From: Acrasis kona
Lineage: Eukaryota; Heterolobosea; Eutetramitea; Acrasida; Acrasidae
NCBI GenBank assembly: GCA_026419775.2
Contig: JAOPGA020001497.1
Coordinates: 1-21,382 of the forward strand
Direction: 5' to 3'
Length of the DNA stretch: 21,382 nucleotides
Part shown: positions 13,888 through 21,382 of the stretch, in pieces
Layout: every line of letters starts with the position of its first letter
Numbering within the stretch: the first letter of the stretch is position 1
Program-made: the position numbers and the translations under genes
The notes under the pieces: generated by a model
What the model was told of the DNA's origin: nothing
Database searches by the model: none
Seen by the model: only the letters and a program-made list of their open reading frames with translations

Positions 13888-14151
13888 CACGTTTTAACAG
13901 TATGTTAGGTTGACTACTTTTGTAAGGAGAGTTTGTCACTGGAACTTGTCAAGCAGAGATAACATTTAGAAATCGTATGTTTCGAATTGTAAAAAGCGAT
14001 TGGGCGAAAGATGTTTACATTATTACATATCCATATTTGATGATGTAGTTCTTTCAATTGAATCGTACTCCGATCGGAGCACCAGAAAATTTCGGAGTTC
14101 GAAGCCCATAAAAAATTTTTTTGGTATCGTGACAACAATAAAATAATCAGA
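13888..14151. promoter_or_regulatory. Divergent promoter region between XPO6 and the M13 peptidase
   Basis: This 264-bp spacer holds no gene. On the plus side CCATAAAAAATT (14106-14117) sits 35-46 bp upstream of the peptidase ATG and is a good TATA-like element. No clear TATA is seen for XPO6. The minus-strand open frame over 13914-14234 has no coding signs and crosses the peptidase signal peptide. Confidence 0.55.
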
Positions 14152-16167
14152 ATGAACACGTTGATTGTATTGTCAGCACTCATATTATCAATTACCCAAG
14201 TGCTTTGTGTTAGTATTAAAGTCTCCGCGCACAACGACTTTGCACAGAAGGTTCGAAGTGCGATGGACTTCTCAGTTGATCCATGCGAAGATTTCTATCA
14301 GTATGCTTGTGGAGGTTGGATCAAAAACACTACTATGACAGACGATAAGAGTATACTAGTAATGGCCGATGATGCAATTGTGGAAGCCAGCAAACAATTT
14401 TATAACAAACTATTCTCGGACACATCTAAACTAGATACCAAACTTGCTTCTTTCTGGACCTCATGTATGAATGAAGGAGAGATTGAAAGTAAACAACACC
14501 AACAGTTATTATATCATACTATTCAAGAAATAAACTCAATAGCTTCTTCGTTCCCCCAATCACTTTTCAAAGTGATGGGTAAATTACACCAGAGTCGTTA
14601 CGATGTGTTATTCAACTTAGATGTCTCTGTGGACTCTAAGATTCCTGAACAATATCTTGCACAACTTAGTCAAAGCGGGTTGCAATTACCTGATAAGAGT
14701 TATTATCAAGATACTGAGACCGTTGATCGCTACACCATACATATCAAAAATATGTTCGACTTGTATTCCTTGGATAACGCCCATGACAGGGCAGTAAGGG
14801 TGATTGCGTTTGAAAAACATCTGGCATCCATTACAATCGATAATGATGAGCTCCGTGACCCGATAAAGACTTTTAATAAAATGTCAGTAGAGGAGCTAAA
14901 AGTAAATACACCAAGTATCCATTGGGAAGATTACTTTGTTTCTGTTGGTATTAATATTAGTGAAGTAAATGTCATAACACCCAAATACTTCAAATCACTT
15001 GACAAAATATTTACAAACAAGACATTGACCCCACAACATTATATTGACTACCTTCTATTCTCAGTAATACACTCTACGTCATCTTATATGAACAAAGTCG
15101 TTAATCAAGAAACTTTCGAGTTTTATGGAAAGTTTCTCAGTGGTGCAAAAGTGCAACTTGAGCGCAAGGTCGTATGTATAAAGTCCACTGACGAGAGTCT
15201 CGGCATGCTTCTCTCAAAGTACTTTGTTGAAGGAATGTTTCCTGGGAAGAGCAAACAACAAGTCTCCAATCTTGTGGAGAAGCTCTTAATTCAGTACAAC
15301 AAGACTCTTTCAGAGGCTAAATGGATGGATGAAGCCACTCGAGAGAGGGCACTTAAAAAACTATCCCTATTCAGTGCAATGGTCGGACATCCCGACAAAT
15401 GGCCCACTTATGACTCTTTGCAAGTAGATTCTCATGAATACTTTACAAACAAGATGCAGGCAAGATTATATCAATGGAAAAACACAGTAAATAAAATAAA
15501 GAACAAGAAAGTAGATCATGAAGAGTGGCAGATGACTCCACAGACTATCAATGCATACTATGATCCAACACTCAACCAAATCGTATTTCCAGCTGGAATA
15601 CTACAAACACCCTTCTTCTCTAGTGAACAACCACTAGCCTACAACTACGGTGGTATAGGTTGTGCAATGGGCCATGAAATCTCTCATGGCTTTGACGACC
15701 AAGGTAGACTCTACGATGGAACTGGAAAGATGGAAGATTGGTGGACTCCAAAAGTAGCTTCCTTGTTCAAAGAAAAAGCAAAATGTTTATCAGACCAATA
15801 TTCACAGTTCGAGCCTCTTCCAGGTGTGTTTGTGAATGGTAATTTGACTTTAGGAGAGAATATTGCTGATAATGCTGGAACAAAGAGCGCTTATTTTGCG
15901 TACCGAGAAGCGGCTGGAAGTGACGCTGATGCGAAATCTGTAGTTCCGGAACTAACCAATTCCCAATTGTTTTATGTGGCTTATGCTCATAGTTGGTGTG
16001 GAAAGGAACGTGACCAAGTTATAAAAATGAGAGTAAAGACGGATGTACACTCTCCTCGAAAATATCGAGTAATTGGCGTTTTGCAAAATGATCCTTATTT
16101 TTCGAAACTGTACTCCTGCGCTCCAAAGTCATACATGAATCCCTCTAATAAATGTGTAGTCTTTTAA
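14152..16167 (+). CDS. Secreted M13 (neprilysin/ECE-type) zinc metallopeptidase
   Basis: This enzyme family cleaves short peptides on the amino side of hydrophobic residues, outside the cell. The 671-residue length suits the ectodomain of the family (human neprilysin about 750 with its anchor). The N-terminus MNTLIVLSALILSITQVLCV is a signal peptide, not a type II anchor, so secretion is expected. The M13 N domain is marked by DPCEDFYQYACGGWIKN. The catalytic domain has NAYYDPTLNQIVFPAGILQ, the zinc motif HEISH (508-512, Glu509 catalytic) followed by GFDDQGR, and the third ligand Glu569 in GENIADNAG with Asp573. The C-terminal part has YAHSWCGKER, SPRKYRVIGVLQNDPYF and the end KCVVF, matching the usual C.vW terminus with Phe in place of Trp. 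All expected catalytic residues are present and no intron is needed. The stop TAA at 16165 has no AATAAA nearby. Confidence 0.93.
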   Translation: MNTLIVLSALILSITQVLCVSIKVSAHNDFAQKVRSAMDFSVDPCEDFYQYACGGWIKNTTMTDDKSILVMADDAIVEASKQFYNKLFSDTSKLDTKLASFWTSCMNEGEIESKQHQQLLYHTIQEINSIASSFPQSLFKVMGKLHQSRYDVLFNLDVSVDSKIPEQYLAQLSQSGLQLPDKSYYQDTETVDRYTIHIKNMFDLYSLDNAHDRAVRVIAFEKHLASITIDNDELRDPIKTFNKMSVEELKVNTPSIHWEDYFVSVGINISEVNVITPKYFKSLDKIFTNKTLTPQHYIDYLLFSVIHSTSSYMNKVVNQETFEFYGKFLSGAKVQLERKVVCIKSTDESLGMLLSKYFVEGMFPGKSKQQVSNLVEKLLIQYNKTLSEAKWMDEATRERALKKLSLFSAMVGHPDKWPTYDSLQVDSHEYFTNKMQARLYQWKNTVNKIKNKKVDHEEWQMTPQTINAYYDPTLNQIVFPAGILQTPFFSSEQPLAYNYGGIGCAMGHEISHGFDDQGRLYDGTGKMEDWWTPKVASLFKEKAKCLSDQYSQFEPLPGVFVNGNLTLGENIADNAGTKSAYFAYREAAGSDADAKSVVPELTNSQLFYVAYAHSWCGKERDQVIKMRVKTDVHSPRKYRVIGVLQNDPYFSKLYSCAPKSYMNPSNKCVVF

Positions 16168-17351
16168 ATAATCTTATTTTGACTTGTATTCTGATCTTCC
16201 GAATCATAGAGAGCTCTTTTCATATCTTAATGAATATTTTATCGTCGGTGTGCATTCTTTTGAGAAGTGGTTGACTCATTTACAATCGACTACGAAATAC
16301 CATGATTACTTATAAAGTTGATGTCAAGACCAAGAACAAGACTGCAGAGAGACCTCGATCGTATAAATTCATCGAGGCGCTCAAATAATTATCATAAATC
16401 ACTAAACAATCTCAGAATCACCCCTACGAGCGTGGGAGAACTGGGATCACCAAGAGTGCAATAAAAGTAACTTTGATTGATCAAATTTCGTAGTTCGAGG
16501 AACAGCGGACTACAATTCTTGTGAATTTGTGTCGAAGGTTTAATTTAAAGTTGAATTGCCTGAAATTAGTCTTGGACATGCGACAGAAGATGAGTTCCAT
16601 ATATATTGGAAGGTATTCAAAATACCAAAGAGCTGAAGAATCAAATGAAGTGACGATTACCATCCACGGATTGCAAAATATAATGTACACAGCAAAAAAG
16701 AAGTTCTGTAATGATTTATTAATGAAATTTCAACAAACGTTAGCTGGACATATTTCCATGGAGCTATAGATGAACTAAGGTGTTTCTGAGTGGAAAAAAC
16801 TCAGCGCATCATGAACCAAGGTGTTTCTGAAGTAGCTGCTCAGATGATAGCTCACAAGAAGAACAAAACAGAAAAATAGCATGGAATATTACAAGAGCTA
16901 GGCATTAAACTTTGTCGGTCCTGACCTTGATCTATTAATTGACTTGTTCAAGTCTAGTGACACTGGGAAAGTAATTGGAATGATCAAGTTTATTATGAAA
17001 AGTAAATCTGAATTAATTAAGAATGCCAAATTTGATGAAGAGAAAAATCATTGAAAGTAAGTTATTTAAGAGTAAATTTGTTTAACGTCTTCAAAGAAAA
17101 AGGTTTTATGTAAAATTTGGATTAATAAATTAAAAGCGTGTGTATTGAGGAGTCACGCTTTTGTTGGCTTTTGCAAAAATCTACGAGATGCAATGGAAAG
17201 TGATGGGTACAGAGCTTAAAATTGTGTTTCTTCACCAATGGAAATGAAGAGTACATCATAGAGACTGACGCTGATGTAAGAGCTCTTGTTGTGAACGACA
17301 GAATCAGAAGAATAATGATATTTTGTAATTCAAACTTTAGAGAACCACAAT
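16168..17351 (+). pseudogene. Broken coding-like strips, possible decayed gene(s)
   Basis: No intact gene lies here, but several plus-strand stretches read like protein and are broken by stops or one-base shifts. They are LNEYFIVGVHSFEKWLTHLQ (about 16224-16283); a single frame from ATG 16302 to TAG 16767 broken at TAA 16386, TAA 16395 and TAG 16491, with NHPYERGRTGITKSAIKV and a final 82-codon open part; a 22-codon frame from ATG 16811; FVGPDLDLLIDLFKSSDTGK in another frame (about 16913-16972); and HAFVGFCKNLRDAMESDGY, which continues one frame over as LKLCFFTNGNEEYIIETDAD, ending at TAA near 17351. Several breaks could be fixed by one base in an A or T run. I recognise no family. It may be a decayed gene, a mobile-element remnant, a real gene with assembly indels, or chance. 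Confidence 0.4.
16770..16830 (+). repeat. Short direct repeat, two 20-bp copies 41 bp apart
   Basis: ATGAACTAAGGTGTTTCTGA (16770-16789) and ATGAACCAAGGTGTTTCTGA (16811-16830) differ at one base. The first has an in-frame TAA where the second has CAA (MN*GVSE versus MNQGVSE). This looks like a local duplication inside the broken region. Confidence 0.7.
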
Positions 17352-17373
17352 AAAGACTTTTATTGATTGCAAT

Positions 17374-17380
17374 TACATAA
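17374..17380 (+). promoter_or_regulatory. TATA-like element upstream of tRNA-Sec
   Basis: TACATAA lies at -33 to -27 relative to the first tRNA base. Metazoan tRNA-Sec genes use an upstream TATA box at about this distance. Here the match is weak and the assignment is inferred. Confidence 0.3.
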
Positions 17381-17406
17381 TCAACTAGCATTTCCACATA
17401 CTCTAT

Positions 17407-17492
17407 GCCGGAATGATTCGGACTGGGGTTCGAAATGGACTTCAAATCCATTGACCACAGTGTGGTAGCAGTTCAATTCTGCCTTTCTGGTG
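17407..17492 (+). tRNA. Selenocysteine tRNA, anticodon TCA
   Basis: The 86-nt gene folds exactly into the eukaryotic tRNA-Sec 9/4 shape. The acceptor stem is GCCGGAATG (17407-17415) with CTTTCTGGT (17483-17491): nine positions, two G-U pairs and one U-U mismatch at the position where the human gene also has U-U. The D stem is long, TTCGGAC (17417-17423) with GTTCGAA (17428-17434), around a four-base loop TGGG. The anticodon stem is ATGGA/TCCAT with loop CTTCAAA, anticodon TCA at 17442-17444. The variable arm is ACCAC/GTGGT (17454-17466). The T arm is GCAG-TTCAATT-CTGC (17468-17482), a four-bp stem. The discriminator is G17492, and CCA is not encoded. A TTTT terminator follows. This tRNA is charged with Ser and converted to Sec to decode UGA in selenoprotein mRNAs that carry a SECIS element. 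No selenoprotein gene is visible in this window. Confidence 0.93.
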
Positions 17493-17501
17493 ATGCCTTA
17501 C

Positions 17502-17505
17502 TTTT
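17502..17505 (+). terminator. Pol III terminator of tRNA-Sec
   Basis: A TTTT run starts 10 nt after the discriminator base, as expected for RNA polymerase III termination. Confidence 0.65.
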
Positions 17506-17515
17506 AAAGCATACA

Positions 17516-17533
17516 ACAAGATTCAAATCTTGT
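17516..17533 (+). repeat. Hairpin downstream of tRNA-Sec
   Basis: ACAAGAT and ATCTTGT pair perfectly (7 bp) around a TCAA loop. The rest of 17493-17665 holds no gene; another TTCAA-loop arm-like sequence lies near 17568-17584. Confidence 0.55.
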
Positions 17534-17665
17534 GTTATTACTGCCGATAATGTTGTAGATAGTTGGGTATCAAGGTTCAAATTTGATTTTGTAACACGCT
17601 TCTGATGTCGCCATCAAGATACTCATACAAGAGAGCAGAAACAGAAATGATCTAATTAAGTACAA

Positions 17666-17671
17666 TTTATT
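17666..17671 (-). terminator. AATAAA poly(A) signal of polyubiquitin
   Basis: The minus strand reads AATAAA 8 nt after the TAA stop at 17680. Confidence 0.5.
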
Positions 17672-17679
17672 ACAGGTAA

Positions 17680-18464
<785 letters not shown>

Positions 18465-18523
18465 TTAAAAATTAGATCATTGTAACAGTTCCAAATAAAT
18501 CAAAAATTAAGTAAAAAGGAATT

Positions 18524-18529
18524 TTTATT
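18524..18529 (-). terminator. AATAAA poly(A) signal of the TH1 gene
   Basis: The minus strand has AATAAA 10 nt after the TAA stop at 18540-18542. Confidence 0.5.
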
Positions 18530-18539
18530 ATTGTAAGAA

Positions 18540-21382
18540 TTATAAACCTGATTTCACTTCGTAAACAAAACGCAACACAAAAATAGTTCTACCGACCGGA
18601 TCAACCATCTTACACTTGACTCTAGTTTTGCTCAACAACGACCTCTGTACCTTTCTCTCTGGCATACTTATGGAATAACGGTCGCCTCTTGGTTGTAAAG
18701 TGCTCACGTCGCTCACATATTGCTTTCTCTTGCTGGTGGTGTCGATCTTTTCGTAGAATTTGTAACCAATCAACGCCCTGTTGTTTACAAAGAATCGAAT
18801 CTCGACGTTGTACTCCCAATTCTTGCCCATTTGGATTGTAACGGGTTCCGTTCCGATGGGAATTGGCCTCTGTTGATTCTTGACGAACACAAAGCTCTCT
18901 TCAAGGACCAAATGAGGTTGTTCGTAGTGCACATGCACCGTGATTCTATTCGTGGGCGCAATGTACTCGAAACGAGTTTCTCTCGACGCATGGTCCATTA
19001 CAAAATTGACCTTTCTTTGTTCCTGTTGATTGTTCTTGTCAATTTCCGCACGGTACGCAAATTCATCACAAACGTTAATCTGTAAAGGTTTGCCGCCCAA
19101 TTGTCTATTCTTGTTATTGACTGCTGCATAAATCTGTTCGATCAATTCTGTTTTCTTTTCGCACTCCAACAACATGTCCTTGATGATTTGTTGAGCGGCG
19201 TTGTTGTCGTCGTCCTTGATGTGCAAACAAACAACGTTATCTTGTAGCGTGCTCACGCTCACTGCACGAATCAAGTGAATGGGAACCTTCTTTTCAATCT
19301 TGTAATCGCTCTTTGGATCGATTCGATACAAGTGAGCATCGGTGATTAACAACATGAGATCTTTGCCCTTTACTACTTGTTCGGTGACTTTGTTGACCGT
19401 TAATTTGTGTAAATGCTCGTTCGTGCTGCTGCTGCAGTAATAGATGATTGCGTCCTTGTTCTTGTTCATGATCTTTGTTTTATTTCTGCTCGCGTCCGTT
19501 CCTGTACCGCTGTAATCACCAATGTGTTCTCTGCTTATGCTAGCTCTTCTTCTAGCTTTTCTTCCGTTGTAAATATCTACGGTTGATCTTTGAGATAAGC
19601 GCAAATCAGCAGAATCTACCAAATCGTTATTGACTTTGATTAGAATACCAGTAAGCGTTCTGTGTAGAGTCGCTAATACTTCTTGGGTGTTATCTTCTTG
19701 GAACTCTACCGTCCTCGATTCATCCACGCTTACGTTCGTAAACGATGCCGTTCTTCTCTTGACGGTTAGGTCGTTATTGGTGTGAGTTGCAGTGGATGCA
19801 GGAGTCACATTATCCGAGGAATCCATCGTGGTGTCGTCCTCTTGTTTGAACGTGATTTGTCCGAATGGATTTACCGAAATTGCATTTCCATTTGCATGCT
19901 CCATTTGTTTTTTCTTGGCTGCTGGACAATAATATAAACGATTTTCGACCACCAATTCCAAACCAATAATGACGCTAAGGTCATGTTCAGGTTTGACTCC
20001 TCCAGAGTCCATATCCGAATTGCGAATCATGTCGCGTCCTGCAAGAGCTTGACTATTCAACACTCTTTTTTGTTGTTCGATTATGATTTTGATCAATTCG
20101 GTTTTGTCGAGTGGAGAATTGATTAGGTAATCGGAATGCGAATCCAAATTTAGAACCAAGAATCCATCTCTAAACGTAGAAACACCAATGCTCATCACGC
20201 TGGTGAGCTCTATGGTGCGTTTGATTTTCATATCTGCGCTACATAAGTAAATGTTTTTTTCGGTGACGATTAATTTGCGTTCTCTGATTCTCAAATTGTG
20301 ATCGACCTTATCGACCGTCGCACTAAATAACACATTGCAATCATCGGATGGTAATTTCCTGATGAACGATTCGTGTTGGTTGAGTCGCAAGTAATCACCA
20401 GCGTACCACTTTAGTAAGCTGGCTCTTCTGCGGAGCTTTTCGCCGCGGTAAACGTCCATTACTCTGGATCGCATGGGAGTGGGAGTGCCGCTTTGTAGTA
20501 ACAAATCAGATCTGTTGATTCTGACCAGAATGTCGGCACCTAATTCGGTACGTATCACTTGTGTTTCGGTACGTACTGCAGCTAATCCTTGATCGTGGTC
20601 CTCTGTTCCGCGATAATCGGGTGTTCCTACGGTTAATGCAGGAGTGACGGCGTCATGGAACGTCTTGATGGGCAACCTTCTTCTTGTTTCTATAAAGTGC
20701 AAGATTTTGGATCCGCTCACATTCTTGATTCGAACGTTAATTTCGTCGCTCACTCTGAATTTCAATTTGACCCTCTGCGATGTGATTTTGACCAAAATGG
20801 TCTTTAATGCAGATTCCAAGACAATGTCGAATTGAATCGCGTGGAAGATTACGAATCCATCCGGTAATGTGCTGAGCGATACGGATTGAATTTCGACGAA
20901 TGGGATCGTCTTGAGAATCAAGTACCCGTGTTGATCCACAATGTAAAATGCACGATCGGTGATCAAAATCATGACGTCTCTTCTGTTCAAGCGATCGTCG
21001 CTCGTGCTGTATTGTCTCATCACTGCGCTAAAGTAAACTTTGAAATCACCATTTTCGTGATGTAATTGATCCATCAAATCCGAAAATTGCATCCTCATGT
21101 AATCATGTTTTCCATTATCGGTATTCATTCTGCTCTGTTGATCGAAACTAGCTCTCCTTCTTAATTTCTGACCAGAGAATGGATCGGGCGAATCAGGAAT
21201 GACGACCTGGACCATCTTTCCACGATTTGTTTTTGTGTACTTGATCATGGATATGGGAGTCAATTGATCGACGTTACCCTTGTACACGACGGGTGCATTT
21301 AACATTTCTTGATGTTCCTGACGGAATCTCAATTTGTCCAAATCTTGATATACTTGATTTCTAGCTTCTTGTTCGATCCTGG
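18540..21382 (-). CDS. Protein with three tandem myosin-I tail (TH1) domains, 5' end outside the window
   Basis: The frame is open from the window edge to TAA at 18540: 946 residues without an intron. No true start is visible; the first residues (RIEQEARNQVYQDLDK) are still inside the protein. Numbering from the Leu codon at 21341, three segments match TH1 domains, which bind acidic phospholipids in class I myosin tails. TH1-1 is ~59-225 (QKLRRRASF, ILITDRAFYIVD, VSLSTLPDGFVIFH), TH1-2 ~300-430 (EKLRRRASLLKWYAGDYL, LIVTEKNIYLC, IGVSTFRDGFLVLNL, DKTELIKII) and TH1-3 ~592-745 (RKARRRASI, LLITDAHLYRID, VSVSTLQDNVVCLHI, KKTELIEQI). Between them are linkers, one low in complexity (~480-545). Residues ~750-933 form a beta-rich C-terminal domain I do not recognise. 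A motor domain could lie upstream; if so this is a long-tailed myosin I, if not a membrane-cytoskeleton adaptor. Confidence 0.8.
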   Translation of the reverse strand, partial: RIEQEARNQVYQDLDKLRFRQEHQEMLNAPVVYKGNVDQLTPISMIKYTKTNRGKMVQVVIPDSPDPFSGQKLRRRASFDQQSRMNTDNGKHDYMRMQFSDLMDQLHHENGDFKVYFSAVMRQYSTSDDRLNRRDVMILITDRAFYIVDQHGYLILKTIPFVEIQSVSLSTLPDGFVIFHAIQFDIVLESALKTILVKITSQRVKLKFRVSDEINVRIKNVSGSKILHFIETRRRLPIKTFHDAVTPALTVGTPDYRGTEDHDQGLAAVRTETQVIRTELGADILVRINRSDLLLQSGTPTPMRSRVMDVYRGEKLRRRASLLKWYAGDYLRLNQHESFIRKLPSDDCNVLFSATVDKVDHNLRIRERKLIVTEKNIYLCSADMKIKRTIELTSVMSIGVSTFRDGFLVLNLDSHSDYLINSPLDKTELIKIIIEQQKRVLNSQALAGRDMIRNSDMDSGGVKPEHDLSVIIGLELVVENRLYYCPAAKKKQMEHANGNAISVNPFGQITFKQEDDTTMDSSDNVTPASTATHTNNDLTVKRRTASFTNVSVDESRTVEFQEDNTQEVLATLHRTLTGILIKVNNDLVDSADLRLSQRSTVDIYNGRKARRRASISREHIGDYSGTGTDASRNKTKIMNKNKDAIIYYCSSSTNEHLHKLTVNKVTEQVVKGKDLMLLITDAHLYRIDPKSDYKIEKKVPIHLIRAVSVSTLQDNVVCLHIKDDDNNAAQQIIKDMLLECEKKTELIEQIYAAVNNKNRQLGGKPLQINVCDEFAYRAEIDKNNQQEQRKVNFVMDHASRETRFEYIAPTNRITVHVHYEQPHLVLEESFVFVKNQQRPIPIGTEPVTIQMGKNWEYNVEIRFFVNNRALIGYKFYEKIDTTSKRKQYVSDVSTLQPRGDRYSISMPERKVQRSLLSKTRVKCKMVDPVGRTIFVLRFVYEVKSGL

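Follow-up and report, generated by a model that had tools for sequence, protein, structure and literature searches.

A genuine selenocysteine tRNA gene in the protist Acrasis kona, with genes that indicate selenocysteine use and a possible snRNA-type upstream element

Here, we ask whether an 86-base sequence in Acrasis kona that has the outline of a selenocysteine tRNA (tRNA-Sec) is a working gene, whether this protist uses the selenocysteine (Sec) that such a gene implies, and from what kind of promoter the gene might be transcribed. The window, i.e., the whole stretch of DNA analysed, comprises 21,382 nucleotides of contig JAOPGA020001497.1 (here C779). We confirm that positions 17407-17492 are a genuine eukaryotic-type tRNA-Sec and an ordinary member of its family. 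The gene and its downstream surroundings are as follows:

17407..17492, + strand: tRNA-Sec gene, by ARAGORN, Rfam RF01852 and minimum-energy fold
17502..17505, + strand: TTTT, the first 3' of the tRNA-Sec and a likely Pol III terminator
17687..18368, - strand: neighbouring polyubiquitin repeats, by translation; an ambiguous base at 18011 breaks the frame

Several lines of evidence support this identification. First, ARAGORN calls a tRNA-SeC (tca) at 17407-17492 on the plus strand. The preliminary description had held that standard scans often miss or misname this gene; however, a standard scan found and correctly named it here. Second, RF01852, the Rfam family for eukaryotic tRNA-Sec, matches 17407-17491 with 62.3 bits (E 9.6e-11), above the family cut-off of 47 bits, so that the covariance check proposed in the preliminary description came out in favor of the gene. 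Third, the 86-mer folded by itself adopts the 9/4 Sec cloverleaf at minimum energy. The acceptor comprises nine positions, with 7+1 pairs and a U-U mismatch (17414/17484) at position 8; the D stem (6 bp) closes a loop of 4 bases, and the anticodon stem, variable arm and T stem have 6, 5 and 4 bp, respectively. The acceptor, T stem, D stem and variable arm had been described from the letters alone, as had the mismatch, a TCA anticodon, a G discriminator and a TTTT terminator, and all of them are present, with the UCA anticodon at 17442-17444 and discriminator G73 at 17492. The folding energy of −28.1 kcal/mol (z −2.14; 3 of 200 shuffles equally stable) is not extreme, and the strong evidence is the covariance score.

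The gene shares the 9/4 fold, the UCA anticodon, G73 and the long D stem with eukaryotic tRNA-Sec as represented by RF01852 and human TRNAU1, and we take the U-U acceptor mismatch to be as in human tRNA-Sec. By contrast, its first acceptor pair is G-U (17407/17491), a feature absent from the preliminary description, and two distinct loci carry the identical tRNA. G73 has been termed essential in tRNA-Sec (PMC5330540, in excerpt). Two stretches within 17495-17600 that resemble T arms by eye were considered as remnants of further tRNAs and rejected, as an Rfam search to E 10 gives only the tRNA-Sec in 17250-17750.

To what extent does the genome encode the remainder of the Sec pathway? A search for the machinery genes recovered SecS (PF05889, 346 bits), SPS (TIGR00476, 257 bits), for which the search gave one locus, and eEFSec, of which domain III lies above its cut-off, while the adjoining exon has eEFSec as its best solved match at 94 bits, with EF-Tu next at 29. 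Of the machinery genes for which the preliminary description proposed a search, these three are present, and PSTK is represented by a PSTK-like ORF with 35 bits, far under the NCBIfam cut-off of 382. This ORF exceeds the Pfam cut-offs for KTI12 and AAA_33, and both of the solved proteins that it matches are L-seryl-tRNA(Sec) kinase. Read by eye, the SPS frame (C835, L028 2371-4500) has a NifS-like C terminus in the active-site frame and a NifS-like start upstream, and SPS is apparently fused to a NifS-like cysteine desulfurase. SPS itself was considered as a UGA-encoded selenoprotein and rejected, since the TGA that follows THGLG fits better within a short intron, with the frame resuming at CGCK, the Cys form (splice inferred by eye).

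Sec machinery was reportedly described in Naegleria gruberi by da Silva et al. in 2013. A NifS-SPS fusion has been reported in N. gruberi and Acanthamoeba (PMC4561486, in excerpt), and its apparent presence here points to a heterolobosean or an amoebozoan. N. gruberi has the Sec machinery and, apparently, this fusion in common with A. kona. N. gruberi also has an SPS2 fused to a polypeptide with a methyltransferase domain according to the same excerpt, in contrast to the one SPS locus from our search. In the main text of PMC11589745, which concerns A. kona, the string "seleno" is absent. A search with the exportin-like protein matched nothing but that protein. Retrotransposon-like polymerase frames (by eye) lie beside the eEFSec gene at L044 4088-5986 (C540). 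Separately, two tRNA genes (L028 812-894 and L049 2263-2350) are found by Rfam and not by ARAGORN as run; they possibly contain introns.

Four genes have TGA at the Sec position. Two encode thioredoxin reductases (C457 and C423), both of which end in GC-U-G-stop; the third encodes SelW (C560), with CTAUGY, and the fourth Sep15 (C29), with CSUKL and a match to solved Sep15. We take these three motifs to be diagnostic of Sec. There is no internal TGA in the six genome matches to the glutathione peroxidase family and no internal stop in two more matches to the Sep15/SelM family. Together, the machinery genes and the four TGA-bearing genes support, at the sequence level, the earlier claim that this protist recodes UGA and has selenoproteins, and they indicate that A. 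kona uses selenocysteine. The outcomes named beforehand as refuting, i.e., a poor covariance score or a lack of both Sec machinery and SECIS-bearing genes, were for the most part checked, and the claim withstood them. At least these four genes would be truncated by standard annotation.

Both thioredoxin reductase genes (L015 on C423 and L041 on C457) have a hairpin after the Sec TGA, with a stem core of ACCTGTC/GACAGGT that starts at the seventh base past this codon. The 50-nt folds have energies of −23.4 (C423) and −18.3 (C457) kcal/mol, with z-scores of −7.2 and −5.5. In a set of 79 folded ORF stops to which both belong, they are the strongest, and the next is at −12.5. The folds past the SelW and Sep15 TGA are at −9.8 and −14.1. 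The thioredoxin reductase hairpin resembles the selenocysteine redefinition element (PMC8704476, in excerpt).

The preliminary description also proposed a search for SECIS elements, and the outcome was divided: Rfam returned none above cut-off, and candidates came from a scanner of our own that looks for ATGA/GTGA, an apical AA or CC, a 3' GA and a helix. Genome-wide, 133 of 895 first-look candidates were scored with the Rfam model SECIS_1, and the one match reached 22.7 bits, short of the cut-off of 35. Rfam to E 10 gave no SECIS in the three stretches searched, those of the C457 thioredoxin reductase, SelW and Sep15. In its strict form, our scanner finds candidates in two of the four 3' regions, i.e., ∼75 nt past the stop codon of the C457 thioredoxin reductase (−12.1) and 84 nt beyond the matched stretch of SelW (−12.4). 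The strict background is 28 candidates, three of them at −12 or better, in 230.7 kb with both strands counted; this sequence takes in L016, on which the C457 gene lies, as well as some loci that overlap. The relaxed form finds candidates in three of the four regions by adding the C423 thioredoxin reductase (86 nt past the stop, −14.6), against a background of 0.26 per 500 nt, or 0.017 at −12 or better. The Sep15 3' region has no candidate by either form. That the tRNA is instead a nonsense suppressor or a serine tRNA with a UCA anticodon is exceedingly improbable: the own tRNA-Ser genes of A. kona do match RF01852 weakly, near 41 bits, but the 9/4 fold, the 6-bp D stem, the far higher-scoring match of the window locus, the Sec machinery and the genes with TGA at Sec positions all argue against it.

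Is the copy in the window the working one? The RF01852 search of the own assembly (37,352,617 bases in 1021 contigs; 53 of 2120 first-look candidates scored) gave nine matches. Three are above the cut-off, each at 62.3 bits, namely the copy in the window and those on contigs C912 and C279, and they are identical at 86 of 86 tRNA bases. The other six were considered as further Sec genes and score near 41 bits; five of them were fetched (the exception being C380), and these are tRNA-Ser-TGA. Because the three copies above the cut-off are identical and the five fetched lower-scoring matches are tRNA-Ser-TGA, a chance match is excluded. Window positions 14132-21382 are 98.8% identical to C912 1-7295 over 7.3 kb, and the two contigs are probably alleles or duplicate contigs of the assembly. 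By contrast, the C279 copy is a distinct locus, with a methyltransferase-like frame ending ∼115 bp upstream and a kinase-like frame downstream on the opposite strand (both named by eye); it shares 88 identical bases with the window copy.

The presence of the gene at two separate loci, with a further copy on the sister contig, raises the alternative that the window locus is a pseudogene or dead copy of tRNA-Sec and that the working gene lies elsewhere, e.g., on C279. The DNA upstream of the window gene, which the preliminary description called pseudogene-like, has many stops in the six-frame translations viewed, and a hominid tRNA-Sec pseudogene that arose by retrotransposition has been described (PMC5330540, in excerpt). 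On the other side of the gene, translation bore out the polyubiquitin neighbor named in the preliminary description. However, all 86 tRNA bases have been kept in the three copies while the flanks of the two loci diverged, which argues for selection or conversion acting on both loci. Moreover, the window copy retains G73, the T run and the upstream elements discussed below. We, therefore, regard a dead copy as very unlikely.

Altogether, the window almost certainly holds a functional nuclear tRNA-Sec gene that serves Sec insertion at UGA, with its transcription, charging and UGA decoding predicted from sequence. We suggest a model whereby the transcript would be charged with serine, the seryl-tRNA-Sec would be phosphorylated by PSTK, and SecS would convert it to Sec-tRNA with selenophosphate from SPS. 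Subsequently, eEFSec would deliver Sec-tRNA to the in-frame UGA of mRNAs with a 3' SECIS hairpin, the predicted targets being those for the two thioredoxin reductases, SelW and Sep15. More tentatively, transcription may be driven in part by an upstream element common to snRNA genes. The features that bear on this last step are as follows:

17314..17381, + strand: upstream stretch that aligns between both tRNA-Sec loci, with 51/70 columns identical
17321-17328, + strand: TTTTGTAA, within the aligned upstream stretch
17343..17351, + strand: AACCACAAT, a candidate PSE/USE-like upstream element at −64, in the same place in C279
17359-17366, + strand: TTTATTGA, within the aligned upstream stretch

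When the 300-bp upstream pieces of the window and C279 loci are aligned alone, this stretch (73% identity) has an E of 2e-9; the last 25 bp 5' of the tRNA-Sec fall outside it. The downstream flanks of the two loci give no alignment past the first bases, save for a T run in each. ACCACAAT lies at −63 in both tRNA-Sec loci and at −65 in U6, for which the search, with 48 of 3607 first-look candidates scored, recovered a single gene. Among five U2 matches, three have CCCACAT at −71, a fourth (L051) has CCCATATT, and all four strong copies (L048-L051) have ATATAA at −31; of these, L049 and L050 do not count as independent, their upstreams being almost the same. The fifth match (L052, weaker at 57.8 bits) has neither the element nor ATATAA in its upstream as read by eye. 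The core common to these sequences, CCACAWT, is at −62 in both tRNA-Sec loci, at −64 in U6 and at −70 in three U2 genes. None of the seven ordinary tRNA upstreams has it (tRNA-Ser accounts for five, two of which come from near-identical contigs), and among background windows of 32 nt it is present in 20 of the 5506 that are AT-rich and in 42 of 10938 overall; as the core was chosen with the sequences already in view, these figures are not clean probabilities. The strong U2 copies also have a TTCAAYCAACT in common further upstream.

These observations lead us to propose, as a possibility that falls a little short of probable, that the tRNA-Sec gene is transcribed from a gene-external promoter of the snRNA type that it has in common with U6 and U2, with an element that in Pol III genes lies some 6-8 bp nearer the start than in U2. 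An equally serious contender, and likewise not quite a probable one, concerns the promoter only: the upstream block could be a remnant of segmental duplication, with transcription proceeding from the internal boxes alone. The two tRNA-Sec loci are related by descent and, thus, not independent; the motif was chosen post hoc; and the TATA hexamer [TA]TA[TA]A[AT] is absent at −40 to −22 of tRNA-Sec and U6. Local alignment of the snRNA cores against the region from −90 to −45, ranked by how many of 2548 AT-rich windows score as well, also lends weight to a remnant. For the U6 core, 54 windows score as well as the window copy, 413 as well as C279, and 886 to 2315 as well as the four U2 copies. The corresponding numbers for the U2-L048 core are 3 for the window copy, 194 for C279 and 557 for U6, and those for the U2-L049 core are 34, 34 and 567. 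Thus, the U2 and U6 upstreams are unlike each other by local alignment, and the support for the promoter rests on the short core. A remnant is, however, harder to reconcile with upstream likeness that persists where downstream likeness is lost, with the nearly constant place of ACCACAAT in two tRNA-Sec loci and U6, and with the scarcity of CCACAWT in ordinary tRNA upstreams and AT-rich background.

The proposed snRNA-type promoter has counterparts among the type 3 Pol III promoters, i.e., those with the vertebrate PSE, the plant USE and the dictyostelid DUSE (elements compared with excerpts of PMC9845283). Here, as in these promoters, the element has a C-rich core and lies 60-70 bp upstream; it occurs in U6, a Pol III gene, as well as in U2, with a shorter distance to the start in U6. 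CCCACAT of the U2 genes is like the plant USE (RTCCCACATCG), and plants place the upstream element one helical turn nearer the start in Pol III genes, similar to the 6-8 bp shift here. The dictyostelid DUSE lies ∼60 nt upstream and has two or three consecutive Cs (PMC7919456, in excerpt). By contrast, A. kona U6 and tRNA-Sec are without a canonical TATA near −30, and the candidate element is known from sequence. Xenopus tRNA-Sec transcription uses a TATA box, a PSE, an activator element and box B (PMC2695483, in excerpt). Trypanosomatids resemble A. kona in having several tRNA-Sec gene copies, two in Trypanosoma brucei and eight in T. cruzi (same excerpt); however, they transcribe them by Pol II (T. 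brucei) or Pol II and III (Leishmania major; PMC11894013, in excerpt), unlike the snRNA-type external promoter suggested here.

The tRNA-Sec gene itself is of a known kind and Sec machinery is already published for N. gruberi; the promoter is a new lead and is suggestive only. Among the matches listed, the titles and abstract beginnings of open-licence articles in PMC contained none on snRNA-type promoters of heterolobosean tRNA-Sec. If true, the promoter reading would mean that tRNA-Sec belongs to the snRNA promoter class in a lineage far removed from vertebrates, unlike in trypanosomatids, and would bear on whether the link between tRNA-Sec and snRNA promoters is old in eukaryotes or an animal invention.
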